Virus record (IMG/VR): IMGVR_UViG_3300036859_000133 | Span: 1 to 39,549 of that record | DNA from: a virus | Direction: 5' to 3' (one strand) | DNA: 39,549 nt | Part shown: in pieces, positions 7,084 through 20,914 of the stretch | Position numbering within the stretch: position 1 is the first letter of the stretch | Layout: each line of letters opens with the position of its first letter | Notes under the pieces: generated by a model | Seen by the model: the letters and a program-made list of their open reading frames with translations, nothing else | Database searches by the model: none | Told to the model about the DNA's origin: nothing | Program-made: the position numbers and the translations under genes

Positions 7084-7637
7084 GGCATCTGGTAATGCTC
7101 TCGGGTGGCCCTGACAGCGCGCTCGCGCTCAAGGAGGCGCTCGCCACCAACGAGCCGGTCGTGGCCTTCCACGCATCCATCATCAACGAACCGCGGTGGC
7201 CATACGAGCTGGCCGCGTGCCGCCAGCTGCACACTGCGTTGTTCGGCCTGCGCCCGTTCGACTTCGTCAACGCCAAGATCGAGAACACCTTCAACGTCCA
7301 GGACTTGCTCATGCTCGCGCCGTTCGCTGCGTCCATGTGCAATCGCTATCTGGACATCGGGAAAATCTGGGTTGGCGAGGACGTGCAGCAGATCGACGGC
7401 GCGCTCGACACCGCCTTCATCCAGATGGTCCGCTCCGCGATCTTCTCGAAGCGGTTCCCGAACACGCCACTCAACTTCGCCTACCACCCGGCACCTGGCT
7501 TTAGCCGCACCAAGTCCCAAATCCGCCAGGCGCTCGGCGACCTGTGGCCACTCACCTGGTCCTGTAGGACGCCAACGCCGTCCGGCCCGTGCCATACCTG
7601 CGACGCCTGCCACGAGCGAGACAGCACCGATGCCTAA
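7080..7637 (+). CDS. QueC-like PP-loop ATP pyrophosphatase
   Basis: 185 residues. The PP-loop ATP-binding motif SGGPDSA is at residues 8-14. The C-terminus carries a Cys cluster (SC..., PCHTCDACHER), a C-x9-C-x2-C-x2-C pattern followed by Arg that matches the zinc site of QueC, 7-cyano-7-deazaguanine (preQ0) synthase. QueC converts carboxydeazaguanine and ammonia to preQ0, a precursor of queuosine and of some phage 7-deazaguanine DNA modifications. At 185 residues it is shorter than usual QueC (about 220-230). It overlaps the adhesin by ATGA and the next gene by 8 bases, so it is part of the tail operon. No FolE, QueD, QueE or DpdA-like transglycosylase gene is visible in the window. It could be a divergent PP-loop enzyme acting on another substrate. 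Confidence 0.7.
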   Translation: MRHLVMLSGGPDSALALKEALATNEPVVAFHASIINEPRWPYELAACRQLHTALFGLRPFDFVNAKIENTFNVQDLLMLAPFAASMCNRYLDIGKIWVGEDVQQIDGALDTAFIQMVRSAIFSKRFPNTPLNFAYHPAPGFSRTKSQIRQALGDLWPLTWSCRTPTPSGPCHTCDACHERDSTDA

Positions 7638-8283
7638 CTTCAGCGCCCAATACGCCCACATCATCAACAACGCCATCGCGTCGATCGGCCCGCTCCCCTA
7701 CATCATCACGAGCGCCGACGGCTCCGCGGTCTACGAGGCCGCCACCATGACCGACGAGCAGCTTGCCGCCGAGGGCTGGCTGCAGATCGAGCAGCGTGGC
7801 CAGAGGGACTTCGACCCTGACATCGAGGTCGCGATCCCGCTCGCCCCGGTCCTCATCAACAACAAGCCGGTCGTCGATTGGACCTACCACTTCACCCCCA
7901 CCTGCCGCGACGCCATGATCGGCAAGATCGACGAACAGGCCGAGGTGCGCCGCGCAGCCGTGGCCACATCCGCCCCGCTCCAGGTCAAGGAGTACGACGA
8001 AGCCTACGACGAGGCCATGAGGTATATGGCGGCCTCCCCAGAAGACCAGGCCGCCGGCTCGTGGCCATTCCTGTCCGCCGACATCGGAGTCACCCAGTTC
8101 CCTGACGGCTCGTTCGTCCAGAACCACGCCCATGCTGCTGGCATCATCATCGCCACCCGCGAAGTGTGGCGCGAGATGGCTGCCGAAATCCGCGCCCAAC
8201 GCCTGGCCGCCAAGTCGGCCATCCGCAACGCGCCCTCCGACGCCGCCGCCCACGCCCATTTTGTCGCGGCCTGGGCCTCATAG
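7630..8283 (+). CDS. Putative tail fibre assembly chaperone-like protein
   Basis: 217 residues from the ATG at 7630, 8 bases inside the previous gene; the longer open frame from 7105 would overlap the QueC-like gene and is rejected. The N-terminal half is beta-rich with a WTYHFTPTCRDAM segment. The C-terminal ~95 residues (AYDEAMRYMAA...GSWPFLSADIGVT...A.GIIIATREVWREMAAEIRAQRLAAKSAIRNA) match the general layout of the helical tail found in many phage tail-assembly chaperones (DUF4376-like). That layout is 'EA..yl....sWP.L.a..G.t ... va..v......W......I...R..aK..I..A'. This agrees with its place at the end of the fibre cassette. Its stop codon abuts the GGGACGAC motif at 8285. Confidence 0.55.
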   Translation: MPNFSAQYAHIINNAIASIGPLPYIITSADGSAVYEAATMTDEQLAAEGWLQIEQRGQRDFDPDIEVAIPLAPVLINNKPVVDWTYHFTPTCRDAMIGKIDEQAEVRRAAVATSAPLQVKEYDEAYDEAMRYMAASPEDQAAGSWPFLSADIGVTQFPDGSFVQNHAHAAGIIIATREVWREMAAEIRAQRLAAKSAIRNAPSDAAAHAHFVAAWAS

Positions 8284-8300
8284 CGGGACGACGCGCCCGC
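8283..8300 (+). promoter_or_regulatory. Recurrent GGGACGAC intergenic motif with hairpin (copy 1)
   Basis: GGGACGAC (8285-8292) lies two bases after the stop of the fibre-chaperone gene, in the 63-base gap before the membrane protein at 8347. GCGGG (8283-8287) can pair with CCCGC (8296-8300) around an 8-base loop. The motif is one of five intergenic copies. A transcript 5' end or processing site is inferred, not shown. Confidence 0.4.
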
Positions 8301-8346
8301 CCCTTTCCGCCTATCAACCGAGGGTCATCAACCGGAGCGTCGCGTC

Positions 8347-8598
8347 GTGGAGCTGACCCCAGTGCAACTTGAAGAAATGCTCGACCGCGCCGCCGAGAAG
8401 GGGGCGAAGCAAGCCCTCGCCTCGATCGGACTTCACGACGACAAGGGCGCTGACGATGTCCGCGAGCTGCGCTCGCTCCTCCAGACCTACCGCAAGATCA
8501 AAGACACAGCCATCAGCACTCTCGTCCGATCCGTCGTCATGGCCATCCTCGGCCTCATCGCCCTCGGCCTATTCGTGAAGTATGGGAAAATTCCCTGA
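8347..8598 (+). CDS. Small protein with one C-terminal membrane helix
   Basis: 83 residues, GTG start at 8347 with a GGAG upstream at 8334. The first ~55 residues are helical and charged (LEEMLDRAAEKGAKQALASIGL, then a D-rich turn and a basic RELRSLLQTYRKIKD segment). A single hydrophobic helix follows at about residues 62-79 (SVVMAILGLIALGLFVKYG). This is the layout of small tail-anchored phage membrane proteins (DUF6127-like), often annotated as hypothetical or holin-like. Given a clear holin candidate at 31198, I do not assign a lysis role here. The gene overlaps the next start by 17 bases. Confidence 0.65.
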   Translation: MELTPVQLEEMLDRAAEKGAKQALASIGLHDDKGADDVRELRSLLQTYRKIKDTAISTLVRSVVMAILGLIALGLFVKYGKIP

Positions 8599-8749
8599 CC
8601 CCTGCGTCATCGTCTGCCAAGGCCCGCCCATCTGTGACCTCTCCGGCGACGATGCGTGCGAGGCCCAACAGAACAATTGCCCCTGGTGCAAATACATCAT
8701 CGTCCACCCGGACGGGACCGAAACAACGATAGAGCCAAGCCACCAATGA
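8582..8749 (+). CDS. Cys-rich 55-residue protein
   Basis: An ATG at 8582 opens a 55-residue frame that overlaps the previous gene by 17 bases and ends in an ATGA overlap with the next (8746-8749). This fills the gap exactly and argues for a real, translationally coupled gene. Six cysteines are present, at residues 8, 12, 18, 26, 33 and 36, with a C-P-W-C knuckle at 33-36, followed by a beta-type tail (YIIVHPDGTETTIEP). A small zinc-binding or disulphide-stabilised virion or accessory protein is plausible. No family is recognised and no signal peptide is present. Confidence 0.55.
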   Translation: MGKFPDPCVIVCQGPPICDLSGDDACEAQQNNCPWCKYIIVHPDGTETTIEPSHQ

Positions 8750-9036
8750 ACACCGCCGAAAAGCTCGACGCGATCAAGTCGCTCCTCAAGCACCCAGCGT
8801 GGCCCCTGATCACGGAGACAATCCGCTCCGAGAATTACTCCTTGGCCACGACGTTCTCGAAGCCAGGCTTCCTCGTCAACGGGGACGACATGCACTTCTA
8901 TCGTGGTGCAATCCACACCGCGGAGCTTTTCGCGACCATGCCCGAGCGCATGATCCAGAGGCTCACCACCGACCTGCTCATCGAGCAGGCCAACGAGGCC
9001 GCCAAGGCCGCCAAGAAACCCGAGCCGCCCCGCTAA
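8746..9036 (+). CDS. Hypothetical protein upstream of the scaffold gene
   Basis: 96 residues from the ATG at 8746, overlapping the previous stop as ATGA; the in-frame start at 8656 lies within the Cys-rich gene and is less likely. The sequence is a compact mixed helical protein (EKLDAIKSLLKHPAWPLI, later LFATMPERMIQRLTTDLLIEQANEAAKAAKK) with a basic Ala/Lys-rich tail. No membrane segment or motif is seen. Its position directly before the scaffolding gene suggests a head-assembly or packaging accessory, but the family is not recognised. Confidence 0.65.
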   Translation: MNTAEKLDAIKSLLKHPAWPLITETIRSENYSLATTFSKPGFLVNGDDMHFYRGAIHTAELFATMPERMIQRLTTDLLIEQANEAAKAAKKPEPPR

Positions 9037-9056
9037 CGCCGGGCAGGAGAACCTGA

Positions 9057-10079
9057 ATGCCCACCCCGATCGAGTCGATCGCCGCCCAGTATCTCGGCCC
9101 CCAGCCGAACAACAACGAAGCCGCAGCCGCCCAGGCCGCGGCAGCCGCCGCCCAACAGCAGCAGACCGCCGAAGCCAATGCCGCAGCAGCTCGCGACGCA
9201 GCTGCCGAGGCTGGCCAGGACGCAGCAGCCGCAGCTGCCCCCAGCAATGAAGGCGAGGAGAACCCTGTCGCCTTTGAGATCGAGCTTGGTGGCCAGAAGC
9301 GCCAGCTCAACCCCAACCAGATCGCCAGCACCTTCGAGCGTTACGCCGCTCTGAACGCCAAGCACGCCAGCATGAAGCCGGTGCTCAGCCTGGTCGAGCG
9401 CATGATGACCGACACCGGCGCAAACGCCGAGCAGGTCGCCGGCGCGATGATGGCCGCAATGAAGGCCGCGTCGAAGGACCCGAAGATGGGTGCCGCCGCC
9501 GCGAAGGAGAACGACAACAACGACGGTGGCGACGGTGATGATCCGCTCGCCGCTTGGGAGCGCGACAACGCCGCCCAGCTCCCGCCCGGCTACCGCGAGA
9601 TGGTCAAGGGCAACACCTCCGTCATGGGCGAGCTGAAGAAGACGCAGCAGATGCTTGCCGCCGTCCTCCAAGGCTCCAAGGCTGTGGCCGGCGCAGCCGT
9701 CCAGGCTCAGCAGCAGCAGCGTGGCAACGCCATCGCCCAGGCGAAGCAGCAAATGGCCATCAACCTCTCGAAGGCGCAGCAGCACCATGGCCTGCCCGAC
9801 GAGAGCGCCAACGACTTCCTCACCTTCGCCGCCGAGCGTGGCTTCACGCTGGAGGACTTCATCAACCCGGACCTGGCGTTCACCGTCGTCGGTGACTTCA
9901 AGAACGCCATGCAGTCGCCGGAGATGGAGCGCCTGAAGGCCATCGCAAAGAAGCGCCAGGCGTTCACCCCGAGCACCGGCTCCGCGCCGGCCGCCGGTTC
10001 CGCGCCCGCCGGCAACAAAGGCCCGACCGCGTTCGACATGCTCACCGATCGCGTCATGTCCAACCGTTTCCCGAAGTAG
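9057..10079 (+). CDS. Capsid scaffolding protein
   Basis: 340 residues, preceded by AGGAG seven bases before the ATG. The protein is highly helical and low-complexity: an Ala/Gln-rich stretch over residues ~20-65, an acidic segment with ENDNNDGGDGDD near 145-160, then coiled-coil-like Gln/Lys helices and a Pro/Ala-rich C-terminal linker (STGSAPAAGSAPAG) ending in a short basic helix (MLTDRVMSNRFPK). Scaffolds guide capsid assembly and leave or are degraded, and a short basic helix at the C-terminus commonly binds the capsid protein. The gene sits directly before the major capsid gene and is closed by a strong terminator. No protease motif is seen. Confidence 0.8.
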   Translation: MPTPIESIAAQYLGPQPNNNEAAAAQAAAAAAQQQQTAEANAAAARDAAAEAGQDAAAAAAPSNEGEENPVAFEIELGGQKRQLNPNQIASTFERYAALNAKHASMKPVLSLVERMMTDTGANAEQVAGAMMAAMKAASKDPKMGAAAAKENDNNDGGDGDDPLAAWERDNAAQLPPGYREMVKGNTSVMGELKKTQQMLAAVLQGSKAVAGAAVQAQQQQRGNAIAQAKQQMAINLSKAQQHHGLPDESANDFLTFAAERGFTLEDFINPDLAFTVVGDFKNAMQSPEMERLKAIAKKRQAFTPSTGSAPAAGSAPAGNKGPTAFDMLTDRVMSNRFPK

Positions 10080-10099
10080 CCACACTCGCTACTGACGAC

Positions 10100-10134
10100 T
10101 AGGGCCGCGCTCATCACGCGGCCCTAATTTTTTT
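10100..10134 (+). terminator. Rho-independent terminator after the scaffold gene
   Basis: A perfect 10-bp stem (10100-10109 with 10117-10126, TAGGGCCGCG/CGCGGCCCTA), a 7-base loop, then a run of seven T (10128-10134). It lies 20 bases past the scaffold stop and separates upstream transcription from the capsid gene. Confidence 0.9.
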
Positions 10135-10137
10135 CTT

Positions 10138-10163
10138 CGATAGGGACGACAGCACCCCCGTCC
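10138..10163 (+). promoter_or_regulatory. CGATAGGGACGAC motif with hairpin (copy 2), upstream of the capsid gene
   Basis: CGATAGGGACGA (10138-10149) is identical to the copy at 20843-20854. It sits right after the terminator T-run, where a new transcript for the capsid gene would be expected to begin. GGACG (10144-10148) can pair with CGTCC (10159-10163). The role as promoter start or processing site is inferred. Confidence 0.5.
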
Positions 10164-10332
10164 TTATCGCAATCATCCCAAACAGCACCGAGTTCCAAGC
10201 CGCGTCTCCGCCCACGGGCCGAGTTGCCGCCGAGGAAACCAGGGCAAAGGCCGACACCGCGACAGCGCGTCCATACGCAGCTCCGCAGCCGAGGCCAACC
10301 GCTTTGAAGACCTTTGCGTCAAGGAGACGACA
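10164..10332 (+). promoter_or_regulatory. Long untranslated leader of the major capsid gene
   Basis: About 170 bases between the motif and the capsid start carry no convincing ORF. The end holds AAGGAG seven bases before the ATG (a strong ribosome binding site). I see no further conserved structure. Confidence 0.4.
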
Positions 10333-11526
10333 ATGCCTGCTTCCATTCCGGGCCTTCGTGGCACGGGTCAGTTCACCACTGATTTCCGCCCGACCAACTA
10401 CCGCGAGCTTTACACGCTCCTGGAACCGAACGGCACCGCGCCGCTGAATGCGCTGCTGTCCATGGGCCAGAGCGAGGCGACCGACGACTCGAAGTACAAC
10501 AACTTCCGCGACGAGCTGCCGGACCGCACCCTCAAGATCAACAACGCCGCTGGCTACGCCTCGGGCGTCACCACCCTCCAGCTCGACGTGGACGGCAACA
10601 CCGGCTACGTCCTGAACGGCTCGATCGTGGTGAACAGCCGCACCGGCGAGGTCATGCTGGCCACCGTCGATGGCAACAACACCACCGGCCAGATCACCGT
10701 GACCCGCAACATCGGCGGCACGGCCTACGCCATCCTGGACAACGACGACCTGTTCGTCGCCGGCTTCGCCGGTCAGGAAGGTGGCGGCTCGCCGACGGCG
10801 ATCACGTTCGACGCCACCGTGGACTTCAACTACACGCAGATTTTCAAGACCGCGTTCCAGGTCACTGGCTCGCTGGACAAGACCTATCTGCGCACGGGCA
10901 ACAAGTATCAGGAGTCCATGGAGAAGGCGCTGAAGCTGCACATGAGCGACATCGAGCGCGCTCACCTGTTCAGCATCCGCAACGAGATCAACGGCTCCAC
11001 CTCGCAGCCCACCCGCACCACTGGCGGCATCATCAACCTGCTCACCTCGGGCGGTTTCGTGGAGGACGTGGCCACCTACGGCACCGCCAACACGATGACC
11101 GAGGACCAGTTCGATCGGCTGCTGATGAACACCATCTTCGCCTACGGGTCGAAGACCAAGCTGGCGTTCGTCGGCGCGACCGTGGCTGGCCACCTCCAGA
11201 AGTGGGGCAAGAACAAGTGGACCCCGCAGTCGGTTGACGGTGCCTACGGCGTGAACGTCGTGCGCTACCAGACCTTCTCGGGCGACCTCTTGGTGCACCT
11301 GCACCCGCAGTTCCGTCAGATCCCCGGCATGGCCAATTCCATGCTGGTGCTGGACTTCCCCTTCATCAAGTATCGCTACCTCCAGGACCGCGATACGAAC
11401 CTGCAGGAGAACATCCAGAACAACGACGCGGACGCGAAGAAATCCCAGTATATGACCGACTGCGGCCTGGAACTGCTCCAGGGCAAGGTCCATCGCTACA
11501 TCAAGAACTGGTCGCTGGTCCCGTAA
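10333..11526 (+). CDS. Major capsid protein (SU10/DUF5309-type, HK97 fold)
   Basis: 397 residues. It follows the scaffold gene and a strong terminator, and has a strong Shine-Dalgarno. The pattern fits the SU10-type major capsid family: a short N-arm with TDFRPTNYRELYTLLEPNG, an E-loop-like FRDELPDRTLKI region and a beta-strand run (GYVLNGSIVVNSRTGEVMLAT). A helical spine (YQESMEKALKLHMSDIERAHLFSIRNE) contains the family's acidic 'diE.a.l.g' core. It continues with RTTGGIINLL and a LVLDFPFIKYRYLQDRD strand, and ends with ELLQGKVHRYIKNW. No N-terminal prohead-protease delta domain or cleavage site is obvious. The gene is bounded upstream and downstream by terminators, so it may be transcribed as its own unit at high level. 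Confidence 0.85.
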   Translation: MPASIPGLRGTGQFTTDFRPTNYRELYTLLEPNGTAPLNALLSMGQSEATDDSKYNNFRDELPDRTLKINNAAGYASGVTTLQLDVDGNTGYVLNGSIVVNSRTGEVMLATVDGNNTTGQITVTRNIGGTAYAILDNDDLFVAGFAGQEGGGSPTAITFDATVDFNYTQIFKTAFQVTGSLDKTYLRTGNKYQESMEKALKLHMSDIERAHLFSIRNEINGSTSQPTRTTGGIINLLTSGGFVEDVATYGTANTMTEDQFDRLLMNTIFAYGSKTKLAFVGATVAGHLQKWGKNKWTPQSVDGAYGVNVVRYQTFSGDLLVHLHPQFRQIPGMANSMLVLDFPFIKYRYLQDRDTNLQENIQNNDADAKKSQYMTDCGLELLQGKVHRYIKNWSLVP

Positions 11527-11548
11527 TAGGGACGACGCAGCCAGCGTC
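11526..11548 (+). promoter_or_regulatory. ATAGGGACGAC motif with hairpin (copy 3), after the capsid stop
   Basis: The capsid stop TAA is followed immediately by TAGGGACGAC; ATAGGGACGAC spans 11526-11536. GACGC (11534-11538) pairs with GCGTC (11544-11548) around five bases. It lies before the terminator at 11561, so if it starts a transcript that transcript would meet a terminator at once. An mRNA 3' or processing element is an alternative reading. Confidence 0.45.
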
Positions 11549-11560
11549 TTGGAAGCAAAC

Positions 11561-11594
11561 AATGGGGGCGGATCAATCCGCCCCCATTCGTTTT
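11561..11594 (+). terminator. Terminator-like hairpin after the capsid gene
   Basis: A perfect 12-bp stem (11561-11572 with 11577-11588, GC-rich core GGGGGCGGA) with a 4-base TCAA loop. Only four consecutive T follow (11591-11594), so termination may be partial. It directly precedes the ribosome binding site of the next gene. Confidence 0.7.
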
Positions 11595-11605
11595 CAGGAG
11601 CCCCC

Positions 11606-11935
11606 ATGGCGAAGAAGAAGCCCGAAGTCGATGTCGAGAAGCTGGTGGCCGCGGAAGCCGCGCGCCATGCAGCCAAGGACGAAGTCGCTCGCGTCGGCAG
11701 CACCCTCTATTGCTCGACCCAGAAGCTCACCGAGATGAGCGTCAGCATGGGCGACGTGGTCATCCGCGGCCGGCGCAACCCGAAGACTGGCCTCATCATG
11801 CTGGAGGTCCCCGACCCGCTGGTCGATCGCTTCGAGCGACACACCCTGTTCCAGATGGGCCACGTCGTGAAGGCGACCGAGGACATCATCGAGGCCGACA
11901 AGCCGGAGCCGGTGGCCGATGGCGGAGCAGAGTAA
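11606..11935 (+). CDS. Small head-associated protein of unknown function
   Basis: 109 residues, ATG at 11606 with CAGGAG upstream; the longer frame from 11549 would run through the terminator hairpin and is rejected. The N-terminus is basic and helical (AKKKPEVDVEKLVAAEAARHAAKDEVARV), followed by a beta-rich core (VSMGDVVIRGRRNPKTGLIMLEVPDPLVDRF) and an acidic tail. It is placed between the capsid and adaptor genes, so a head decoration or head-completion role is plausible. The gene overlaps the next start by 17 bases. No family is recognised. Confidence 0.6.
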   Translation: MAKKKPEVDVEKLVAAEAARHAAKDEVARVGSTLYCSTQKLTEMSVSMGDVVIRGRRNPKTGLIMLEVPDPLVDRFERHTLFQMGHVVKATEDIIEADKPEPVADGGAE

Positions 11936-12359
11936 CACCGCCCCGCAGATCGCCGACTTCTACAGTCCCCTTGAGACGATCGCGTTCAAGGCGCTGCGCA
12001 TCTACGGCGACTTCAACCCGGGCACTGTGGACGGCGATGTCCTGTTGATGTTCGTGGACTTCGCGAACCAGGTCATCGACGAGGTCCGCGCGCATCCCTA
12101 CTGGCGTGGCGGCGGCGTGGACTACTACGCCTCTCCCACCGAGCGCCGCGCGATCCCCGACCACATCATGATGGCCGGCCTCCTGGCCAAGTATGCCGAG
12201 CAGCAGTTCTCCGACAAATACCAGCTGTTCGCGCCCAAGTATGCGCGCACCATGAACCAGCTGCTCTGGTATATCCTGAACGGCAACACCGAGATCGCGC
12301 TGCGCCGCGTGGACGAGAAGGCCCCGACCAACCCGACCAACGGGCAGCCTCTCGCATGA
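11919..12359 (+). CDS. Head-tail adaptor / tail tubular protein A-like
   Basis: 146 residues. The sequence is mostly helical (LETIAFKALRIYGDFNPGTVDGDVLLMFVDFANQVIDEVRAHPYW, then IPDHIMMAGLLAKYAEQQFS...KYARTMNQLLWYI). This is the layout of the small adaptor proteins that sit between portal and tail nozzle in short-tailed phages (T7 gp11 / P22 gp4-like). The position directly before the nozzle gene, overlapping it as ATGA, supports this. No catalytic motif is seen. Assignment rests on context and fold style rather than a clear signature. Confidence 0.6.
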   Translation: MAEQSNTAPQIADFYSPLETIAFKALRIYGDFNPGTVDGDVLLMFVDFANQVIDEVRAHPYWRGGGVDYYASPTERRAIPDHIMMAGLLAKYAEQQFSDKYQLFAPKYARTMNQLLWYILNGNTEIALRRVDEKAPTNPTNGQPLA

Positions 12360-13849
12360 GCGGCACCCTCTCGCCTCCAGCCAAGAAGACTCGGATTTTT
12401 CCGTTCGAGGAGTTCATGGGCCTCGACGCCTACCGGGACAACTTCGCCCTGGACACGGGCAAACAGCAATACCTGGCCAAGCTCGACAACGGCTTCTGCG
12501 ATTTCCGCGGCACCATCATCCGCGACGCCGGCGCGACCAAGCGCCACTCGATCGGCGGCGTGATCGACCATGTCAACTTCGTCAGCGAGGACATCTCGGT
12601 CTGGGCACAGATCGACGGCGCTGGCGTCACGCTCAACTCCGACCGCAACCACAAAATCCAGGACGTCTTCCCGATCAACGCGGTCGTCAGCTCCACCATC
12701 TTCGGCCGTAAGGTCTACTTCTTCTGCCGCGACCAGCAGCTCCGTATCTACGACGGCCTGTCCTGGAACAAGAGCAAATCGAAGTCCGATCCTCGCCCTG
12801 CCTTCGGCGTGGCCATTCAGCGCCGGCTGGCGACGGCCGGCTACATCAACGACCCGACCACCATCTACTTCACGCGCACCGACGACGCCGAGGTATTCCC
12901 GGGCGACGAGGAGCCGAACTACGTCAACCCGCTGAAAGCCTTCAAGCTCGACATCTCCAACCAGATCAGCACCGCCGACAAAATCCGTGGCCTGGGCGTC
13001 TTCGAGAAGAACAACCTGGCCATCTTCACCTCCGACCAGGCGCTCATCTACTACATCGATCCCGACTACACGAAGGCGCAGATCGTCGATAAGGCCAACG
13101 TCAACGTCGGCACGATCAGCCATCGCACGATCGCCACGGCCGGCACGGACCTGCTGTTCTGCTCGCGCCACGGTGTCCACTCGCTCCGGCGCTCCGACGC
13201 GAACGGCATCACCATCTACACCATCCCGCTGTCCCACTCGGTCGAGCTGCTCTACCGCCAGCTCTACAAGCGCACGCCGGACAAGGAAGCCATCAACGCC
13301 TACTACGATCAGGACCGCGGCCAGTATCACATCTTCTTCCCGCTCGGCCCCCAGCTCTGCAACCGGCTCACCCTGACCATCAACCCGGTGGCCGATGGCG
13401 TGCACAAATGGTCCACCGGCACGTTCCTGCGTGCGCGCTGCGGCGCGCGCCTGGGCGACGCCATGGTCTGGGGCACGCCGGACGGCATCTACAATGTCCA
13501 CGACATCGAGGACAGCGACGCCACGGTCTACCCGGACATGATTGTCGAGACGCCGATCATCTGGAACGGCGCGCTCAACGACATGAAGGACAGCCACTCC
13601 TTCGTCCTCCAGGCGAGCGGCAAGTGCACCATCGTGGTCGAAGCCTTCGACGAGCGCGGCCGACAACTCAGCTCCTACAACATCAACGTGGACGACGGCG
13701 CTGCGGACGACAACTTCACCGACGTTCCCCTAAACCGTCAGTATGAGCGCAAGTTCGAGCATCGCTACCGTGGCCTCAAGTTCCGCTTCACGGTGACGGG
13801 CACTGGCCTTGTGCGGATCGTCGGATTTGCCGTGCTAGTGAGGGCTTAA
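12356..13849 (+). CDS. Tail nozzle / stabilisation protein (beta-propeller type)
   Basis: 497 residues, predicted almost wholly beta-strand. Repeated strands with Trp/Tyr and Asp-rich turns run from residue ~50 to ~380: SIGGVIDHVNFVSEDISVWAQIDG, DVFPINAVVSSTIFGRKVYFFC, LGVFEKNNLAIFTSDQALIYYIDP, TAGTDLLFCSRHGVHSLRR and WSTGTFLRARCGARLGDAMVWGTPDGIYNV. A C-terminal jelly-roll-like part follows (ISRRQ-type beta region, ending FRFTVTGTGLVRIVGFAVLV). This matches the propeller nozzle of P22-like gp10 and related podovirus tail tubes. It closes the head and contacts the fibres. The stop TAA overlaps the start of the second fibre (TAATG), linking their expression. Confidence 0.7.
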   Translation: MSGTLSPPAKKTRIFPFEEFMGLDAYRDNFALDTGKQQYLAKLDNGFCDFRGTIIRDAGATKRHSIGGVIDHVNFVSEDISVWAQIDGAGVTLNSDRNHKIQDVFPINAVVSSTIFGRKVYFFCRDQQLRIYDGLSWNKSKSKSDPRPAFGVAIQRRLATAGYINDPTTIYFTRTDDAEVFPGDEEPNYVNPLKAFKLDISNQISTADKIRGLGVFEKNNLAIFTSDQALIYYIDPDYTKAQIVDKANVNVGTISHRTIATAGTDLLFCSRHGVHSLRRSDANGITIYTIPLSHSVELLYRQLYKRTPDKEAINAYYDQDRGQYHIFFPLGPQLCNRLTLTINPVADGVHKWSTGTFLRARCGARLGDAMVWGTPDGIYNVHDIEDSDATVYPDMIVETPIIWNGALNDMKDSHSFVLQASGKCTIVVEAFDERGRQLSSYNINVDDGAADDNFTDVPLNRQYERKFEHRYRGLKFRFTVTGTGLVRIVGFAVLVRA

Positions 13850-15384
13850 TGGCTCGTCTTCGTCAGCTTCACCCGCAGAACTACCCCAACTCGGGTAACA
13901 TCAACACCGAGTTCGAGAGCCTCATCCGCTACCTGAACGCGGCCGAGTTGGGCAACAAGACCCTGGCCGAGCTGCTGGGCGTCCTGTTCGACGGCGACGG
14001 CGAGTTCGACGGGCCGATCGACATGCGCCTGGACACCTCTGCCGGCCTCCAATATCGCGTCGGCGAATACGAGGAGGAGGACGATGGCTGGACCACGATC
14101 GCCGCCATCTCCGAGCTGCGCGGCCCCGCCGGCCAGAACCTCGGCACCGTCGAAGGTCCCTTCTTCTTCAACCGACAGGACTACGTCGCGACCGCTGGCC
14201 AGACGGACCTGCCCTACAACATCGACACGAACACCGAGGAAGTCGTCGTCTTCAAGAACGGCCTCCTCCAGGCTCCGACCGCCTACACCGTGGACGACCT
14301 GAACAACGAGATCGTCATGTCGAGTGCGCTCGCGCTCAACGACAAGGTCACGATCTACAGCGTGCGCGCCAGCTCCGTCACCGGCTACGTCCGCGTGGAC
14401 ATCACCGCGGCCGCATCGCAGGCCGTCTTCCCGTTCATCCACACCGAGGATCAGCGCATCCTCGTCTATCGCAACGGTCTGCTCCAGCGCGAGGGCGGTG
14501 CCTACGACTACGTGGCCAGCCCCGCTTCGGACACCGTCACCTTCACCACCGCTCTGCCGGGCGGCGACATCGTCACCATCATGACGGTCGAGAACCAGGC
14601 GCTGACCAACGTGGCCGGCCTGATGCTCGAAGACGAATACACCGAGAATGGCCTGATCAACTGGTCCAAGATCGGCGTGGAAGACGATGAGATCGCGCAG
14701 ATCAAGGTCGCTGGCCTTGTGGCCGCGCTCGCCAGCAAGGGGAAGCTCACCGTCTCGGCGACCGCTCCGGTCGGCCCTGCCATCGGCGACCACTGGCAGG
14801 ACACGTCGCAGACGCCGGATGTCCTCAAGTTCTGGGACGGCACGAGCTGGATCAGCACCTCGCCGGCCAGCTCGCTCCCGTCCTTCATCGGCTCGAACGC
14901 CGGCCAGTATGTGCGCGTGAACGCGCTCGGCACCGCGCTCGAATACGGCAACATCGACAACTCCGCCCTGGTCCCGAAGACCTACATGGGCGCGGCGAAC
15001 GGCGTGGCCAGCCTCGACTCCGCCGGCAAGCTCCCGACCTCCCAGCTGCCCAGCGTCTTCGCGCTCGGCAACGTGGGCTACATCGGCGCTGGCGCGGTGG
15101 CCAACGGCACCAAGACTGTCCAGCGCATCTATGGCTCGAAGGTCCGCCTCACCGGCTGGGGCTACAAGCTCGGCGCGGGCACCTGCACCATCCAGCTGGC
15201 CGTGGACGGCGTGGTCATCGGCACCACCCAGGCCGTCACCACCGCGGCCGGCCAAGGCAACTTCGGTTCCATCATCGAGATCGACGCAACCACCGCCACG
15301 CGCGTCATCCAGATCAGCGTGACCAGCGCGACCTCGGCCTCCGACCTTGAAGTCGGCCTCGCAACCCAAGTGCTGAGCACCTGA
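13849..15384 (+). CDS. Tail fibre protein 2 (shares N-terminal anchor with fibre 1)
   Basis: 511 residues. Residues ~28-63 (RYLNAAELGNKTLAELL, then FDGDGEFDG) closely parallel fibre 1 at 2029, indicating a shared virion-attachment module. Two similar beta modules follow in tandem. One is at about 105-180 (VVVFKNGLLQAPTAYTV...NDKVTIYSV), the other at about 181-250 (ILVYRNGLLQREGGAYDYV...GGDIVTIMTV). Fibre 1 has one such module. A linker with WWDGTSW-like 'KFWDGTSWIS' follows, then a beta C-terminal domain (KVRLTGWGYKLGAGTCTIQLAVDGVVIGTTQAV) that could bind host glycans. It starts directly on the nozzle stop (TAATG). Confidence 0.8.
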   Translation: MARLRQLHPQNYPNSGNINTEFESLIRYLNAAELGNKTLAELLGVLFDGDGEFDGPIDMRLDTSAGLQYRVGEYEEEDDGWTTIAAISELRGPAGQNLGTVEGPFFFNRQDYVATAGQTDLPYNIDTNTEEVVVFKNGLLQAPTAYTVDDLNNEIVMSSALALNDKVTIYSVRASSVTGYVRVDITAAASQAVFPFIHTEDQRILVYRNGLLQREGGAYDYVASPASDTVTFTTALPGGDIVTIMTVENQALTNVAGLMLEDEYTENGLINWSKIGVEDDEIAQIKVAGLVAALASKGKLTVSATAPVGPAIGDHWQDTSQTPDVLKFWDGTSWISTSPASSLPSFIGSNAGQYVRVNALGTALEYGNIDNSALVPKTYMGAANGVASLDSAGKLPTSQLPSVFALGNVGYIGAGAVANGTKTVQRIYGSKVRLTGWGYKLGAGTCTIQLAVDGVVIGTTQAVTTAAGQGNFGSIIEIDATTATRVIQISVTSATSASDLEVGLATQVLST

Positions 15385-15385
15385 T

Positions 15386-16204
15386 ATGAACGGCTACGGC
15401 GCACTCGTGCAGACCGCCTCGTTCGGTCGAGGCAACGACTCCATGATGGCCCACGTCACGCCGGGCGAAGTCATGCTGCCGCCCGAGCTGCTCGCCCAAG
15501 AGCCTGGCCTCATGCAGGCGCTGGCCACGGTGTTCGCCAAGCACGGCCGGAACCCGGCGGAGTTCACCGTCGGCGCTACCGAAGGCACAAATCCCGTCAC
15601 CGGCCTCCCCGAATACGGTTGGTTCGACAAGGTCATCAAGAGCATCAAGAATTCGATCGTCCCGACCGTGGCCTCTGTTGTCGGCGGTGCCGCCGGCAAT
15701 TACCTCGGCATCGGCTCGGCGATCGGCTCCGGCATCGGCGCTGGCCTCGGCAGCTATGCCACTGGCAACGACGCCATCTCGGCGGCGCTCACCGGCGTCG
15801 GCTCGTGGGCCGGCGCGGAATACCTCGGCCCCGAGCTTGGCCTCTCCGGCGACTTCCTGGGTGCCTCCGCGGGATCGCAAGCCGGCGGCGCGCTTGGCGC
15901 GTTCGGCGCGGGCGTTCTGAGCAACATGGCCTTCGCCCCCGAGGAGACGGACATGGCCGGCCTGGAGGTGCCGCAGTATCAGCTGCCGAACACCCCGCTG
16001 CCCAATCCGATCAACACACAGAACCCTGGCCAGCAACAGCAGACCCCCGGTCCGGTCGTGGGCAACGGCGGCTCGACCATGCAGCCGATCACCTACCTCA
16101 CGCAGGTCAAGAACCGCGACACCGGCGAGATGGAATACGTCAACATTTCGCCGTTCGGCTCCAGCCTCGTGAACTCGAACAACTGGAACGTCAACTATGT
16201 TTGA
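15386..16204 (+). CDS. Membrane-active ejection-type virion protein
   Basis: 272 residues. The N-terminus holds SFGRGNDSMMAHVTPGEVMLPP, a motif found in several phage virion proteins. A long Gly/Ala/Ser/Ile-rich hydrophobic stretch covers residues ~90-175 (SVVGGAAGNYLGIGSAIGSGIGAGLGSYA and later repeats), resembling membrane-inserting segments of ejection proteins. The C-terminal third is Pro/Gln-rich and ends ITYLTQVKNRDTGEMEYVNI. A related NRDTG stretch occurs near the C-terminus of the 16795 product. It probably leaves the head with the DNA and contributes to an envelope channel. It starts one base after the previous stop. Confidence 0.55.
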   Translation: MNGYGALVQTASFGRGNDSMMAHVTPGEVMLPPELLAQEPGLMQALATVFAKHGRNPAEFTVGATEGTNPVTGLPEYGWFDKVIKSIKNSIVPTVASVVGGAAGNYLGIGSAIGSGIGAGLGSYATGNDAISAALTGVGSWAGAEYLGPELGLSGDFLGASAGSQAGGALGAFGAGVLSNMAFAPEETDMAGLEVPQYQLPNTPLPNPINTQNPGQQQQTPGPVVGNGGSTMQPITYLTQVKNRDTGEMEYVNISPFGSSLVNSNNWNVNYV

Positions 16205-16379
16205 TCGGAAGCTGGCGAGCGTCACGACCGGCAGCGTGGTCATCCACCCGATGGTCATGACGGGCGAGCTGCGCCAGCACCTCGAACAGTTCTTCGCCCG
16301 AGCTGGCCTCACCATCGACGCCTTCACGGTCGGCAATGACGCCAACCAGAAGGACGCCGACGGGAAGCTCCTGTTCTAG
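16197..16379 (+). CDS. Small hypothetical protein
   Basis: 60 residues, ATG at 16197 overlapping the previous stop by 8 bases. The sequence is a short mixed beta/helix protein (LASVTTGSVVIHPMVMTGELRQHLEQFFARAGLTIDAF) with an acidic Asn/Asp tail. No signal peptide or motif is seen. Its stop overlaps the 3' end of the minus-strand lipoprotein gene by four bases, so it is the last gene of this plus-strand block. Function unknown. Confidence 0.55.
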   Translation: MFDRKLASVTTGSVVIHPMVMTGELRQHLEQFFARAGLTIDAFTVGNDANQKDADGKLLF

Positions 16380-16717
16380 TTCGGCACGGCGGCCATGCCA
16401 CACTGCGCGGCGAGCGCAGGCACGTCTCCGTAGCCCTTATTCATGATCGCCTCGTATTCCGCTTCGCCGATGGGCGACAAACCCTTGGCCATGCGGTCGA
16501 GCTTCACCTGCTCGGTCTGGCTCAGCCGGTCATACCCGGCGGCCATCATGCAGGCGTGCTGCTCGTCCGAAACGCTCGCGGGATGTGGCACGTTCTTCCG
16601 GGCATATTCCCGGAAGCCCAGATACTGACCGCGCTCCGGCATTGCCGACACGCGCTCCCCACCCGACGCACATCCGGCCACCAGAATAAGCGTGGCCACA
16701 AGTACCCCAATTCGCAT
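16376..16717 (-). CDS. Signal-peptide lipoprotein, minus-strand moron candidate
   Basis: 113 residues. The N-terminus is a type II signal peptide: positive start (MR), hydrophobic core and lipobox LVAGC with the lipidated Cys at residue 16. The mature protein is small and helical, with two further cysteines (HACMMAAGY..., AAQCGM). AAAGGAGG lies seven bases before the ATG, a strong ribosome binding site. It is the only minus-strand gene inside the structural block and uses less C-ending codons than its neighbours (GGG, GTA, CTT, ATT). Both signs suggest later acquisition. Phage lipoproteins of this size often change the host surface or block superinfection, but that role is inferred. The family is not recognised. 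Confidence 0.7.
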   Translation of the reverse strand: MRIGVLVATLILVAGCASGGERVSAMPERGQYLGFREYARKNVPHPASVSDEQHACMMAAGYDRLSQTEQVKLDRMAKGLSPIGEAEYEAIMNKGYGDVPALAAQCGMAAVPN

Positions 16718-16727
16718 TCAGCCCTCC

Positions 16728-16745
16728 TTTGGGACGACAGGTCCC
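16728..16745 (+). promoter_or_regulatory. TTTGGGACGACAGG motif with hairpin (copy 4)
   Basis: TTTGGGACGAC lies in the divergent gap between the lipoprotein gene and the 16795 gene. GGGAC (16731-16735) pairs perfectly with GTCCC (16741-16745) around five bases. The T-run side overlaps the Shine-Dalgarno of the lipoprotein gene on the other strand. Function inferred from recurrence. Confidence 0.4.
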
Positions 16746-16756
16746 TGGCCACTTCA

Positions 16757-16781
16757 TAATTTCGCCGGTGAGCTGAAATTA
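16757..16781. promoter_or_regulatory. AT-rich inverted repeat between divergent genes
   Basis: TAATTTC (16757-16763) and GAAATTA (16775-16781) form a perfect 7-bp inverted repeat around 11 bases. It is an AT-rich island in a GC-rich gap between oppositely directed genes, so an operator or overlapping promoter is plausible. I cannot identify clear -35/-10 boxes. Confidence 0.35.
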
Positions 16782-16794
16782 CAAGAGGTGGGCA

Positions 16795-17952
16795 ATGCCT
16801 TCCTATGGTGGCGCGCACGGCCCTGACGGGAGCAAGAAAAGCGGGGATCAAGGGCAGGGTTCCCGCGACAGCGACGGCGGCCAGACCGGCGGTGGAAACG
16901 GTGGCAAAGTCGGCGGAACGGGCGGCTTCGGCAATACCGCGACGACTGGCAACCGCTATCCCGGCTACCGTGGCCCAACCGGCACCCGCAACGCGGCTTC
17001 CCATCCCGAGAAGCCGACCGGCATGCGCGACACCCTCGGTGGCCAGAACTACCGCGGTGGCCGCACGTCGCCGTCCGTCTCGCGCGCCACGCAGCAGCTG
17101 ACCAATGACTATATCGACCGCACCTATCAGGGCGCGACGCCGGAGAAATACGGTCAGGCAATGCGCGACTTTGGCGAGCGCATGGCCGACTACAACGGCG
17201 AGGAGGAGGACTTCATCGACTGGATCGGCAATCAGCTCGCCGACCTGTTCGGCTTCGAGGAGTCGATGCCCTCGTTCGACATCAACAACACGAACACGTT
17301 GGCCGACTGGGGCTGGGACCCGGTCGAGACGGCGCTCGCCGTCGGCGGAATGTTCAATCCCGCGCTCAAGACGGCCAGCTCCATCTACGGCGGCTACGAG
17401 TTCCTCGGCGGCCCGCGCCCGAGCATCAACATGGGCACGAGCGTGATCGGCCAGGACCAGTCCTACAACTCCGCCCCTGCGGCCAGCTTCGGCGGCACGG
17501 CCATCGGCAACATCAGCGGCGGCTTCGGCGGCGCCGTGCGTGGCGGGCCTTCCGCCAAGCAAGGCGGCAACGGCGGCAGCGGCGAGAAGACGGGCGGCAG
17601 TGGCATTTTCGGCGGCACGCCCACCCCTGGCCGCGCGCCATCTTTCCCGACCCCGGCCCCTGCGGCACCCAAGCCCCCGGCGACTCCGGCGCTGAGCACC
17701 GGCCCACTTCCGCCGGGCGTGTCCTTGGTCAACTACAGCACGCCGATCTACAACCGCGACACCGGCGGCGTCATCAGCGTGCCGGGCTCCGGCAGCGGCT
17801 TCACGAGCGGCTATGGCCAGGTCATCCAAGCCCCCTTTGGCGCGGTCCCGCGTCCGCCCGGAAGCATCCACCCCCCGATTAAGGACGACTTCGGCGGCGT
17901 GAAGAACGGCAACGTCCTGCGCCCGACTGGCTACGGAGCACTGGCAATCTAA
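16795..17952 (+). CDS. Gly/Pro-rich internal virion protein
   Basis: 385 residues. The N-terminal ~80 residues are Gly/Ser/Asp/Lys low-complexity. A folded helical core follows (SVSRATQQLTNDYIDRTY, then GQAMRDFGERMADYNGEEEDFIDWIGNQLADLFGFEE). The C-terminal half is Gly/Pro/Ala-rich with a hydrophobic patch (ALAVGGMFNPALKTASSIYGGYEFLGG). A YNRDTG stretch near the end recalls the 15386 product. Its position at the head of the block 16795-31174 suggests an internal head protein that is ejected. The start has a GAGGTGGG Shine-Dalgarno, and the stop overlaps the next ATG (TAATG). No enzyme motif is seen. Confidence 0.55.
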   Translation: MPSYGGAHGPDGSKKSGDQGQGSRDSDGGQTGGGNGGKVGGTGGFGNTATTGNRYPGYRGPTGTRNAASHPEKPTGMRDTLGGQNYRGGRTSPSVSRATQQLTNDYIDRTYQGATPEKYGQAMRDFGERMADYNGEEEDFIDWIGNQLADLFGFEESMPSFDINNTNTLADWGWDPVETALAVGGMFNPALKTASSIYGGYEFLGGPRPSINMGTSVIGQDQSYNSAPAASFGGTAIGNISGGFGGAVRGGPSAKQGGNGGSGEKTGGSGIFGGTPTPGRAPSFPTPAPAAPKPPATPALSTGPLPPGVSLVNYSTPIYNRDTGGVISVPGSGSGFTSGYGQVIQAPFGAVPRPPGSIHPPIKDDFGGVKNGNVLRPTGYGALAI

Positions 17953-18761
17953 TGGCTGATCCATTCACCACTGGCTTTAGCGCCCTCTCGCTCATCTCCT
18001 CCTGGCTCGACCAGCAGGATGCGGCGGCCGCTGCCGGCGATGCGAATGCGCTCTCGCAGCAGGCGCTCAATGCCCAGCTCAAGATGGCGCTCCAGCAGAT
18101 GGGCGCGGACAACGCCCTGCGCGACCGCGTCATCCAGCAGACCGGCGCTTACCAGACTTCCGTGTCCAACGCGCTCAACGCGATGGGACCCTACGGCTCG
18201 ACGCTGTGGGACGAGAAGGCCCTGGCCAGCGAGTTCGGCACCCGCTACGCCAGCTATCGCGACGCAGCCGACGACGCCATCACCGAGCTGTTCGGCACCC
18301 AGCAGGCCGACATGATGCGGATGGGCATGGACGCCTCGACGCTGGACATCGACATGCGCGCCGCGCTCGCCGACAAGGCCGCGGAGCTGCACAGCGAAGC
18401 CTACACCAAGGCCAAGGACGACGCGCTCGGCTACGTGACGAACCTGAACACCGCGCGCTGGGCTGGCCTCGACCAAATGAACAAGATGCGGATTGGCGCG
18501 GTCAACGAGAACCAGGCGCTCTACGAGCCGGCCATGAAGTATCTGGCCTCGATGATCACGGGCGGCGGCAACACGATGCTGTCGAACGCCTCCTACACCT
18601 CGTCCAATCTCTACAACCAGCTGAACCAGCAGGCCGTGAACGCATCGGCCGGCTTTGGCCAGGAACTGGACGACTTCTTCTCCGAATACGGCCCGTCGAT
18701 CAGCGATTGGCTGAAGGGAAGCAAGTCCAAGAGCACGACTGAAATCAGGATGGGCATTTAA
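17952..18761 (+). CDS. Alpha-helical internal virion protein
   Basis: 269 residues, starting and ending in TAATG overlaps with its neighbours, so it is coupled to both. The protein is long-helical and Ala/Gln-rich (ALSQQALNAQLKMALQQMGADNALRDRVIQQ), with regular amphipathic helices (KAKDDALGYVTNLNTARWAGLDQMNKMRIGAVNENQALY) and a polar Ser/Asn-rich C-terminal segment before a basic tail. The layout and order (small, medium, giant) parallel T7 gp14-gp15-gp16 internal core proteins. By that analogy it would form part of the ejected trans-envelope channel. No membrane helix or catalytic motif is evident; the name is contextual. Confidence 0.6.
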   Translation: MADPFTTGFSALSLISSWLDQQDAAAAAGDANALSQQALNAQLKMALQQMGADNALRDRVIQQTGAYQTSVSNALNAMGPYGSTLWDEKALASEFGTRYASYRDAADDAITELFGTQQADMMRMGMDASTLDIDMRAALADKAAELHSEAYTKAKDDALGYVTNLNTARWAGLDQMNKMRIGAVNENQALYEPAMKYLASMITGGGNTMLSNASYTSSNLYNQLNQQAVNASAGFGQELDDFFSEYGPSISDWLKGSKSKSTTEIRMGI

Positions 18762-20848
18762 TGGCCGGCTTGTTTGGCGGATATACGTGGGCGGTCCAGC
18801 AGGGCCTCAACGAGGCGCGCGATCATCGCTTTGCGATGCGCGACAAGAAGCTCTCTGCCATGAAGGACTTCCTGGCGGAGGCGACTGCCAATGGCCAGCA
18901 GCTCAGCCCGAAGGAGTATCTCGACCAGGTCGAGCAGATGTCCGACGGATCGCACTGGCTCCGTGGCCAGCTCGACCCGGGCACGATCATGCCCAAGCTC
19001 ATCCAGCGCCAGAACGAGCGCGCGAAGGCCGTCGTCGCCCAGGAGAACCTCACTGCTCTGCAACAGCAGGACGCGGCGCGCAGCATCTTCGAGCGCGACC
19101 TCGGCCAGCTGTCGATGGCGCTCGACGATCCCCTGAAGATCAAGGAGTCGATGGCCGCCAAGTATGGCCAGAACCCGATCTTCTCCGACTACCTCAAGGG
19201 CCTCGACGACAACACGATCGGCCGCGCCCGCGCGACCACGTCCGCGTCCGAGCTGCAAAGCCTCATGCCGCTCATCTCCAGCATGACCGAGCAGGGCGCG
19301 AAGGACTACTTCGCCAACTACAACACGCCCAAGTCCGTGCAGGCCGCCGCGCTGTCCTGGATCAGGGAGCGTGACACCAAAATCCAGGAGGAGCGTGGCT
19401 GGCAGCAGCACATGACCGAGCTGAACCACAAGCTCCAGAAAGACGCCTACAAGTTCCAGGACCAGCTCGCCGACGAGAACCTGGTGGCCGCGCAGTCCGT
19501 GCAGGCCGTCAAGGACGCCACCTCCGCCATGGCCAACGATCCCAACCTGGCGGCTGCCGTGGCCAACTACCGCACCGGCAAGCTCGATGACCGCCGCGCC
19601 GCTCGCTCGGCGCTCAGCCAGTTCACGATGGGCACCTCCTGGGCCAACGACCTCGACGGGTTCGTCGCGCAGCTCGGACAGCAGCCGCAGATCGCTGTGG
19701 CCACGCACGAGCAGAGCCAGCTCGACGAGATCGCCAAGGCCGCCCTGTCCGACCCGACCATCCAGGCCGCGGTCGCTCGCGACAGCACGCCCGCCAGCAT
19801 CCTCAAGAACCTCCAGCCGCTGTTCGCGCAGCAGCCCTACTTCACCAACAATCCGGCCGCCCAGAAGCGCGCGGCCGAGATGGTGGCCGGCACGATCGAG
19901 GAGGCGAACTTCGCTGCGGCCGAGCACGCCTACGAGAAGCTCGTGTCCGAGGCTGGCCCCGCCGCTGTGGAGAAGGCCAAGAAGGACCTCGAAACCTACG
20001 ACGCGCAGTGGGAGCCAGCGATCGGCACGCTCACCGAACCCGATGCGCAGATGGCCGCGCAGGCGTTCTCGCTCCAGTTCTACGCGGACCCCAATGCCCG
20101 CCAGGCCGCCATCACCATCCTGGACGATGAAGGTGCCATGCCCGCGCCCGAGCTGGCGCAGCGCCTCGCCCAGGAAGGCTTCCAGATCATCGACCGCAAC
20201 TCCTACGCCACGCAGCTGGCCAGCCAATACGCGGCCGCGTCCGTCGGCTTCACCCCGACCACGCACGAGAGCCTCGTGGACGCCGCGCGCCAGACCCTCG
20301 AAAGCACCAAGGACATCGACGGCCTCCTGCGCCAGTCGCCCGGCGCGACCCGCCAGGACGTGATCGCCTCCCTGGAGCAGGCCACGGTGCAGATGCAGAA
20401 CATGCTCGTGGCCGCGACCAAGACGCCCGCGTCCGTGCGCGGCTACAAGGAGGGCGAGGTCCACTCGCTCATCAACGAGTATCAGGCCCGCATCGCCACG
20501 CTCCGCTCCGAGGCGGCCAAGGTCGAACCGAAGCCGGTCGAGCAAGGCCCGCCCTCGATGCAGCAGCTCCTGGACAACATGAAGACCACGGCGCAGCAGC
20601 CGAAGCCGGTCGAGCAGACCGGCCGGCAGCGCATCGACATCATCACCTCGACGGCCAAGGAGATCGCTGCCCAGGTCCCGAACGACCCGACCTTCGGCAA
20701 CCGCAAGCGCCTAACCGCCACGCAGGTCGAAGCCCTGGCTGACGCCATGATCCGCGAGAAGGGGATCAAGAACATGACCCGTGGCCAGGTGGCGGGCATT
20801 CTCGCCGGCCGCCTCCGTTACAACGGCATCATCGTCTCCGGCCGATAG
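18761..20848 (+). CDS. Large alpha-helical internal virion protein (T7 gp15-like role)
   Basis: 695 residues, almost entirely helical with Ala, Gln, Glu and Lys. Long coiled helices dominate (e.g. QRQNERAKAVVAQENLTALQQQDAARSIFERDLGQL; ERGWQQHMTELNHKLQKDAYKFQDQLADENL). The C-terminal ~60 residues are basic with a helix-turn (ATQVEALADAMIREKGIKNMTRGQVAGILAGRLRYNGI). There is no membrane helix and no lysozyme motif. It lies directly before the giant protein and probably forms the middle layer of the ejectosome. Its stop codon TAG is embedded in the CGATAGGGACGA motif (20843-20854). Confidence 0.65.
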   Translation: MAGLFGGYTWAVQQGLNEARDHRFAMRDKKLSAMKDFLAEATANGQQLSPKEYLDQVEQMSDGSHWLRGQLDPGTIMPKLIQRQNERAKAVVAQENLTALQQQDAARSIFERDLGQLSMALDDPLKIKESMAAKYGQNPIFSDYLKGLDDNTIGRARATTSASELQSLMPLISSMTEQGAKDYFANYNTPKSVQAAALSWIRERDTKIQEERGWQQHMTELNHKLQKDAYKFQDQLADENLVAAQSVQAVKDATSAMANDPNLAAAVANYRTGKLDDRRAARSALSQFTMGTSWANDLDGFVAQLGQQPQIAVATHEQSQLDEIAKAALSDPTIQAAVARDSTPASILKNLQPLFAQQPYFTNNPAAQKRAAEMVAGTIEEANFAAAEHAYEKLVSEAGPAAVEKAKKDLETYDAQWEPAIGTLTEPDAQMAAQAFSLQFYADPNARQAAITILDDEGAMPAPELAQRLAQEGFQIIDRNSYATQLASQYAAASVGFTPTTHESLVDAARQTLESTKDIDGLLRQSPGATRQDVIASLEQATVQMQNMLVAATKTPASVRGYKEGEVHSLINEYQARIATLRSEAAKVEPKPVEQGPPSMQQLLDNMKTTAQQPKPVEQTGRQRIDIITSTAKEIAAQVPNDPTFGNRKRLTATQVEALADAMIREKGIKNMTRGQVAGILAGRLRYNGIIVSGR

Positions 20849-20854
20849 GGACGA
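20843..20854 (+). promoter_or_regulatory. CGATAGGGACGA motif (copy 5), before the giant gene
   Basis: Identical over 12 bases to the copy before the capsid gene (10138-10149). It contains the stop codon of the 18761 gene. Unlike the other four copies it does not open a clear hairpin. A start or processing point for the mRNA of the giant protein is inferred. Confidence 0.45.
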
Positions 20855-20876
20855 TCAACTTCAAACGCTCGGGTAT

Positions 20877-20909: not shown

Positions 20910-20914
20910 AACTC

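Follow-up and report, generated by a model that had tools for sequence, protein, structure and literature searches.

Small phage proteins can activate late or lysogenic promoters, as do Ogr-Delta of P2/P4 and CII of lambda; Ogr binds zinc and its site lies near −55, and CII acts around the −35 region. The middle promoters of T4 are described as combining a host −10 element with a phage element that replaces the −35 element, the MotA box (a/t)(a/t)(a/t)TGCTTtA, which is centred at −30 and lies 12 ± 1 bp from the −10 element (PMC2988021). T4 late promoters have the sequence TATAAATA and require gp55, and at T4 gene e the read-through RNA is described as hiding the ribosome-binding site and the late-promoter RNA as lacking the 5′ strand of that structure (PMC3014915). 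Here, we examine a short motif, N-GGACGA-(C/A/T), of the 39,549-base virus record IMGVR_UViG_3300036859_000133 (this whole stretch is called the window below). An initial annotation, made from the sequence alone, had noticed five intergenic copies and had offered three options, namely an RNA 5′-end mark, an RNA processing site or a non-canonical phage promoter. Comparison with relatives makes a strong case for a predicted family-wide class of late promoters with a phage-specific −35 box.

A complete relative of the window is Roseobacter phage CRP-810, the type of a described marine phage family, and CRP-810-type prophages have been reported in SAR11, Poseidonocella and Sphingomonadaceae; the words "promoter" and "RNA polymerase" do not occur in the main text of that paper (PMC11288001).

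Results

Profile scans of the window found a portal protein, a tail protein, a capsid protein, a 3428-residue open reading frame (ORF), a Sak4-like protein and a primase-polymerase (prim-pol), and the capsid protein is 60% identical to that of CRP-810. The capsid, portal and prim-pol genes are shared with the CRP-810-type marine phages and place the window among them as a fragment, which yielded neither a terminase nor an integrase. Relatives were collected by capsid search (22 loci, then 80, plus 4 from bacterial genomes). CRP-810 (OR671924.1) and 12 long contigs, the window not among them, are referred to as the long records (n = 13). Sites were dereplicated at 80% identity ahead of profiles and controls, with the exception of the first site profile, for which only the bases 3′ of the box were used, and sites too close to a contig end were excluded from the −10 and hairpin counts.

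The motif is conserved across the family. In an 8-mer count over 106 loci (1.27 Mb; order-3 expectation; L001–L003, L026 and L027 excluded), the four most over-represented words were TAGGGACG, AGGGACGA, GGACGACA and GGGACGAC, all from the motif, and in the same loci GGGACGAC had a strand ratio of 135:4. The box was found 3′ of the capsid gene in 79 of 82 loci and 5′ of it in 66 of 81, and never on the opposite strand in either gap; in the loci of a later search, which overlap in part with contigs of the earlier ones, the figures were 56 of 61 after and 50 of 59 before the capsid gene. The search of relatives proposed in the initial annotation thereby found conservation, where a lack of it had been named as counter-evidence. 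Several loci without the strict box show near variants by eye; upstream of capsid, L047, L048, L052, L072 and L102 carry the variant boxes GGGATGAC and GGGTAGAC and, about 27 bases further on, −10-like hexamers (also by eye). In four phages that are more distant but have a related capsid (Kuura, VS-ABTNL-3, Mel-JY34 and PaP2; first ~30 kb of each), the motif had 1–4 hits per strand and no consistent bias. Within the window, a one-mismatch search for TAGGGACGA was near chance (8 hits against 5.1 expected, equalled in 12 of 100 shuffles), as a composition artefact of a GC-rich genome would be. Such an artefact has next to no probability, since over-representation, strand bias and synteny hold across records of 39 to 66% GC, and the family-wide counts refute chance.

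We then asked what accompanies the box. Profiles of non-coding sites were flat on the upstream side, save for an A/T bias, and had a second conserved block 26–32 bases downstream, with the form of a −10 hexamer. The best −10 match fell 26 or 27 bases from the first base of the motif in 77 of 152 dereplicated non-ORF sites, against about 7 (~4%) expected, and in 17 of 102 sites inside ORFs. When spacings of 25–28 were allowed (chance ~9%), the best match fell there in 76% of the sites upstream of the capsid gene (capsid-up), 33% of those downstream of it (capsid-down) and 59% of the others. A strong −10 at 26/27 followed 56 of 211 consensus boxes (4.4 expected) and 56 of 210 G1A, 22 of 76 C8A and 17 of 53 C8T variants; for the G1T and G1C variants the counts were 18 of 136 and 7 of 125, and variants at positions 2–7 were at background, save G6T (6/25) and perhaps C5T (5/50). 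Thus, positions 2–7 (GGACGA) are required, position 1 tolerates change and position 8 accepts any base but G. The sites share with sigma70-like promoters a TATAAT-like hexamer at a fixed distance. A TTGACA −35 element at 17 ± 1 bp was not found; N-GGACGA-H occupies that place, with only the letters GAC overlapping. As the −10 hexamer lies downstream at a fixed distance, N-GGACGA-(C/A/T) would be a −35-region element, located at about −38 to −31 on the assumption that transcription starts 6–7 bases 3′ of the −10 hexamer. On this arrangement, it is very likely that the motif is a promoter element, and of the three options offered at the outset it is the non-canonical phage promoter that holds.

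The pairs of box and −10 hexamer also recur at defined gene positions. In the 13 long records, promoter-like pairs were present at matching late junctions, although not at every junction in each record: upstream of gp62, at the terminase stop before the portal gene, upstream of gp47/gp46, on both sides of the capsid gene and before the giant protein. In 9 of the 13 long records, 3–8 bases separate the terminase stop from the box before the portal gene, and a box with −10 lay at most 2 bases from the resolvase stop in 15 of 70 loci (none on the other strand). In 80 loci found via another gene, 115 of 163 gene-strand boxes had a −10 hexamer, versus 4 of 64 on the opposite strand. In the divergent early gap, sigma70-like pairs were seen, though not set against a chance control, and the box was missing from 10 of the 11 records listed, each of which has both genes and a gap of at most 1500 bases. 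The whole family appears to use box promoters to turn on its virion genes.

The initial annotation had pointed to a resemblance between ATAGGGA and the start region of T7 promoters, and the giant ORF is similar in size to the virion RNA polymerase of N4; both would suit a T7-type or N4-type promoter served by a single-subunit phage RNA polymerase. This is very improbable. On the upstream side of the box, positions −40 to −5 show no conservation, and the conserved −17 to −1 stretch that a T7-type promoter would have before GGGA was not found; the T7-like reading was rejected for this lack of upstream conservation, which the initial annotation had also noted, and the other half of the element lies downstream. 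Scans of the giant protein against PHROGs, Pfam and PDB found no RNA polymerase, nor is there one among the annotated CRP-810 features; a PF00940 search of 23 records was also negative, though its control was silent too and the window is a fragment. The idea that the giant protein is an encapsidated RNA polymerase found no support, and a simple pattern search gave no DxDxD-type motif. The giant gene is a single ORF of 3428 residues in the window (20888–31174), and its CRP-810 counterpart is three ORFs (gp34–gp36); the window protein shows peptidase-like HELAH and HEVMH motifs by eye and a sub-threshold ART-PolyVal match.

In the window itself, the five intergenic copies of (A)TAGGGACGAC reported earlier are real, each being a GGGACGA in a gap on the coding strand, and the longer shared words were confirmed as well. 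Exact matches to ATAGGGACGA are those at 10140, 11526 and 20845 on the plus strand, and the minus strand has none; the 10140 and 20845 copies have CGATAGGGACGA in common, and those at 8285 and 16731 have GGGACGAC. GGGACGA is found 10 times on the two strands, and 5 of these lie within gaps that make up 2.2% of the bases (binomial P = 1.3e-6, with a gap list defined by hand). Three copies overlap a stop codon or sit just 3′ of one (ORF ends 8283, 11526 and 20848). When both strands of the whole window were scanned for N-GGACGA-H followed at 25–28 by a −10 hexamer that scores more than 2, three sites were obtained, all among the original five (Table 1). A small minus-strand ORF within the late block (16376–16717), with a lipoprotein-like start by eye and no PHROG match, adjoins the 16731 site.

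Table 1. Boxes in the window with the predicted −10 hexamers and hairpins that accompany them
Feature	Position	Strand	Remarks
Box GGGACGAC (−35 region)	8285–8292	+	Just 3′ of the stop of ORF 7105–8283, upstream of the gp47-like gene; agrees with the upstream-gp47 position in relatives
Predicted −10, TATCAA	8312–8317	+	27 bases from box start
Box GGGACGAC	10143–10150	+	Upstream of the major head protein, 3′ of a T-rich terminator-like tail
Weak candidate −10, AATCAT	10171–10176	+	Spacing 28
Box GGGACGAC	11529–11536	+	Just 3′ of the major head protein gene stop
12-bp terminator-like hairpin	11561–11588 (arms 11561–11572, 11577–11588)	+	5′ arm covers the predicted start (~11567); −10 unrecognisable here
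Box GGGACGAC	16731–16738	+	Upstream of gene 16795–17952
Predicted −10, TAATTT	16757–16762	+	Spacing 26; within a 7-bp hairpin (16757–16763/16775–16781)
Box GGGACGAT	20848–20855	+	Begins on the last stop base of ORF 18761–20848; upstream of the 3428-residue ORF
Weak predicted −10, TATCTC	20874–20879	+	Spacing 26; score 0.1
10-bp hairpin	20876–20910 (20876–20885/20901–20910)	+	3′ arm contains the Shine-Dalgarno GGAG ahead of ATG 20915

The hairpins involve another part of the predicted promoter than first thought. Pairing of the motif's own bases, which the initial annotation had seen in four copies, was obtained, when a stem of 5 bases was required, at 2 of the 5 sites in the window (P = 0.12) and at 21 of 153 sites in the family, against 13.0 ± 3.5 in shuffles. 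It is not conserved, and the motif hairpin was dropped as a general feature, this pairing being not clearly above chance. Stems of at least 7 bp straddling the predicted start were in excess over base shuffles, in 31 of 44 capsid-down (3.8 expected), 11 of 24 giant-like (1.6), 49 of 173 other (14.2) and 11 of 55 capsid-up sites (5.0); here, the other class holds only sites with a −10 score of 2 or more, and the classes follow a rough rule that leaves some capsid-down-type sites among the giant-like ones, which tells against a fine reading of these figures. The stem 3′ of the capsid gene is terminator-like and has 12 bp in the window. Before the giant gene, the stem is TCTCCGTGGG in the window and TCTCCAGTTAT in CRP-810: the bases differ and the stem is kept, with the same design in others too. 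Since the hairpins straddle the predicted start site, they would be formed mainly by read-through RNA. Read-through transcripts would then be terminated after the capsid gene, or have their ribosome-binding site hidden before the giant virion protein, and transcripts begun at a box promoter would be without much of the hairpin 5′ arm. We lean slightly towards this logic, in which read-through RNA would be shut and box-started RNA open.

The leaders of the capsid gene bear on the RNA options. In five capsid-up loci (L009, L012, L016, L018 and L023), an outer stem joins bases just 3′ of the box to a segment near the capsid start, across the predicted promoter, with compensatory changes seen by eye. 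A second, conserved hairpin, in the capsid leader of relatives such as CRP-810, L034, L053, L054 and others, has a near-invariant CGCTACGGC-type loop, and 5 of its 7 predicted pairs changed on both sides among 13 sequences; among the family 8-mers, CGCTACGG and GCTACGGC hold ranks 5 and 6. The hairpin was not recognised in the window leader (10183–10332), and Rfam gave no family at the gathering score for the window and 8 relatives. Both structures would favour an RNA 5′ end or processing site that begins with GGGACGA and is followed by a structured leader. This alternative is nevertheless quite improbable, and the two RNA options were mostly left without support: a constant spacing between the box and a −10 hexamer is not what an RNA site predicts, the motif bases pair no more clearly than chance family-wide, and most capsid leader structures begin, by eye, 3′ of the predicted start.

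We next considered which protein may read the box. Profiles of the 63 annotated CRP-810 genes yielded few DNA-binding candidates, gp24 and gp13. Another candidate lies in an annotation gap of OR671924.1 (14316–14026, minus strand), between the primase-polymerase and Holliday-junction-resolvase genes: an ORF of 97 residues with a helix-turn-helix (HTH) and a CxxC...CxxC pattern, missing from the deposited annotation. This HTH/zinc-ribbon gene is present in 13 of 13 long records, and its product, with an almost fixed DTLKR helix and a GAKY motif, was found in 286 viral contig stretches. Curated Pfam families and PHROG regulators gave no significant match to the protein; phrog_836, "late transcriptional activator", was hit weakly by one member out of 13 (E 0.084). 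A PDB profile search gave partial HTH matches only (best 8vd6, "CAP repeat", E 1.3e-6, ~34 residues), and none of 260 Foldseek matches to a structure model (predicted local distance difference test, pLDDT, 79.6; predicted template modelling score, pTM, 0.46) reached E <= 0.001.

In a count of gene presence alone, 35 of 42 distinct records were positive. The seven negative ones are the window, five contigs without resolvase and G036. The window and the five contigs lack the resolvase, so their prim-pol to resolvase interval is incomplete. In G036, prim-pol abuts the resolvase gene, gp24, integrase and capsid are present, and the HTH/zinc-ribbon gene is absent from the record; boxes are missing from its capsid-up, capsid-down, giant-up and gp47-up gaps, and none of its 32 NGGACGAH has a −10 hexamer. 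In the window, an ORF after prim-pol (39148–39549), inside which the contig ends, is not the HTH/zinc-ribbon gene found at the same place in relatives.

The same promoters might have their −35 box read by LuxR-type gp13, YdaS/Cro-like gp24 or a host sigma factor or activator, which we regard as unlikely. A GerE domain is clearly recognised in gp13 (E 3.5e-11), but this protein occurs in 9 of 13 long records, and sites with box and −10 are in all 13; it was dropped as a universal reader because it is not in every record with boxes. Gp24 occurs in all 13 long records and its recognition helix is well conserved, but it is kept in G036, whose examined late gaps hold no box. A host factor would need to serve hosts of several groups, judging by prophages and the titles of metagenome-assembled genomes. 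A sigma-70 region 4 domain, also considered, exceeded the cut-off in 2 of 18 records, of which G037 is a bacterial genome and G028 has a hit that overlaps the LuxR-type protein. The box reader is likely phage-encoded, and that protein is probably the HTH/zinc-ribbon protein. At the gp24 position of the window (~36496–37152), upstream of prim-pol, lies a small YdaS/Cro-like HTH gene.

Discussion

The predicted late promoters are best read as sites to which a phage factor, probably the HTH/zinc-ribbon protein, directs the host polymerase. Each would consist of N-GGACGA-(C/A/T), 18–19 bases and a sigma70-like −10 hexamer (TAtaaT), the latter being read by host RNA polymerase with its housekeeping sigma factor and −35 recognition being taken over by a phage protein. 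Ordinary sigma70 promoters would drive the early and replication genes; once the factor is made, box promoters would become active at the start of every late-gene block. Judged on gene order and sequence comparison, there is good reason to think that such a late promoter class, with a phage-steered host polymerase, explains the motif. The complete account, in which the HTH/zinc-ribbon protein re-targets the host sigma70 polymerase to the GGACGA box in place of a −35 element, and promoters placed within hairpins shut late genes in read-through RNA and open them only in RNA started at the switch, throughout a globally distributed family, is tentative and falls a little short of probable.

Several observations weigh against this reading. 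Among the capsid-down sites, the upstream control scored as high as the test of −10 position itself (10 of 30 each), so that this class rests mainly on its column profile. The strict box is absent from 15 of 81 capsid-up gaps. The −10 elements are weak in the window and in its nearest relative, G023 (66% GC), where 2 of 37 and 2 of 43 NGGACGAH, respectively, pass the −10 test at 26/27; the summed −10 score of the window at spacing 25–28 beats shuffles (P = 0.001), these being simple base shuffles. By pass rate, G036 (0 of 32) is no different from the window and G023, and only the box at matching gaps sets it apart. The link between reader and box depends on a single natural loss, that of G036, and the window ends ahead of the reader gene, so its own copy is not seen. 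Finally, the outer stem of the capsid-up subgroup suggests that the stretch 3′ of the box is also transcribed there, by read-through or from a start at the box.

As far as the accounts of T4 in PMC2988021 and PMC3014915 go, the proposed arrangement resembles the middle promoters, with MotA and AsiA sigma appropriation, in joining a host −10 element to a phage substitute for the −35 element. It differs in that the GGACGA box would lie at about −38 to −31, ahead of late virion genes, the candidate reader is an HTH/zinc-ribbon protein, and neither the MotA box nor its spacing was found. MotA and AsiA were not seen among the annotated CRP-810 features, no search aimed at them having been made. The hairpin before the giant virion gene (window 20876–20910) has the geometry described for T4 gene e; unlike that case, it goes with a box and a sigma70-like −10 hexamer, and the hairpin also appears as a terminator-like stem after the capsid gene.

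Ogr-Delta and CII differ in another way, as the candidate reader has no significant match to a curated family and the box is placed differently from the Ogr site. Among the literature matches listed for GGGACGAC with promoter and phage, none concerned this motif, the string being too common to exclude an earlier description.

Altogether, the box and its −10 hexamer would provide a late-promoter code for the widespread CRP-810-type marine phages that can be read from metagenomic contigs, and they would name for this family a candidate master regulator that the reference annotation missed. If this is true, these phages would use a −35 replacement unlike MotA, together with a recurring design of promoters inside hairpins.

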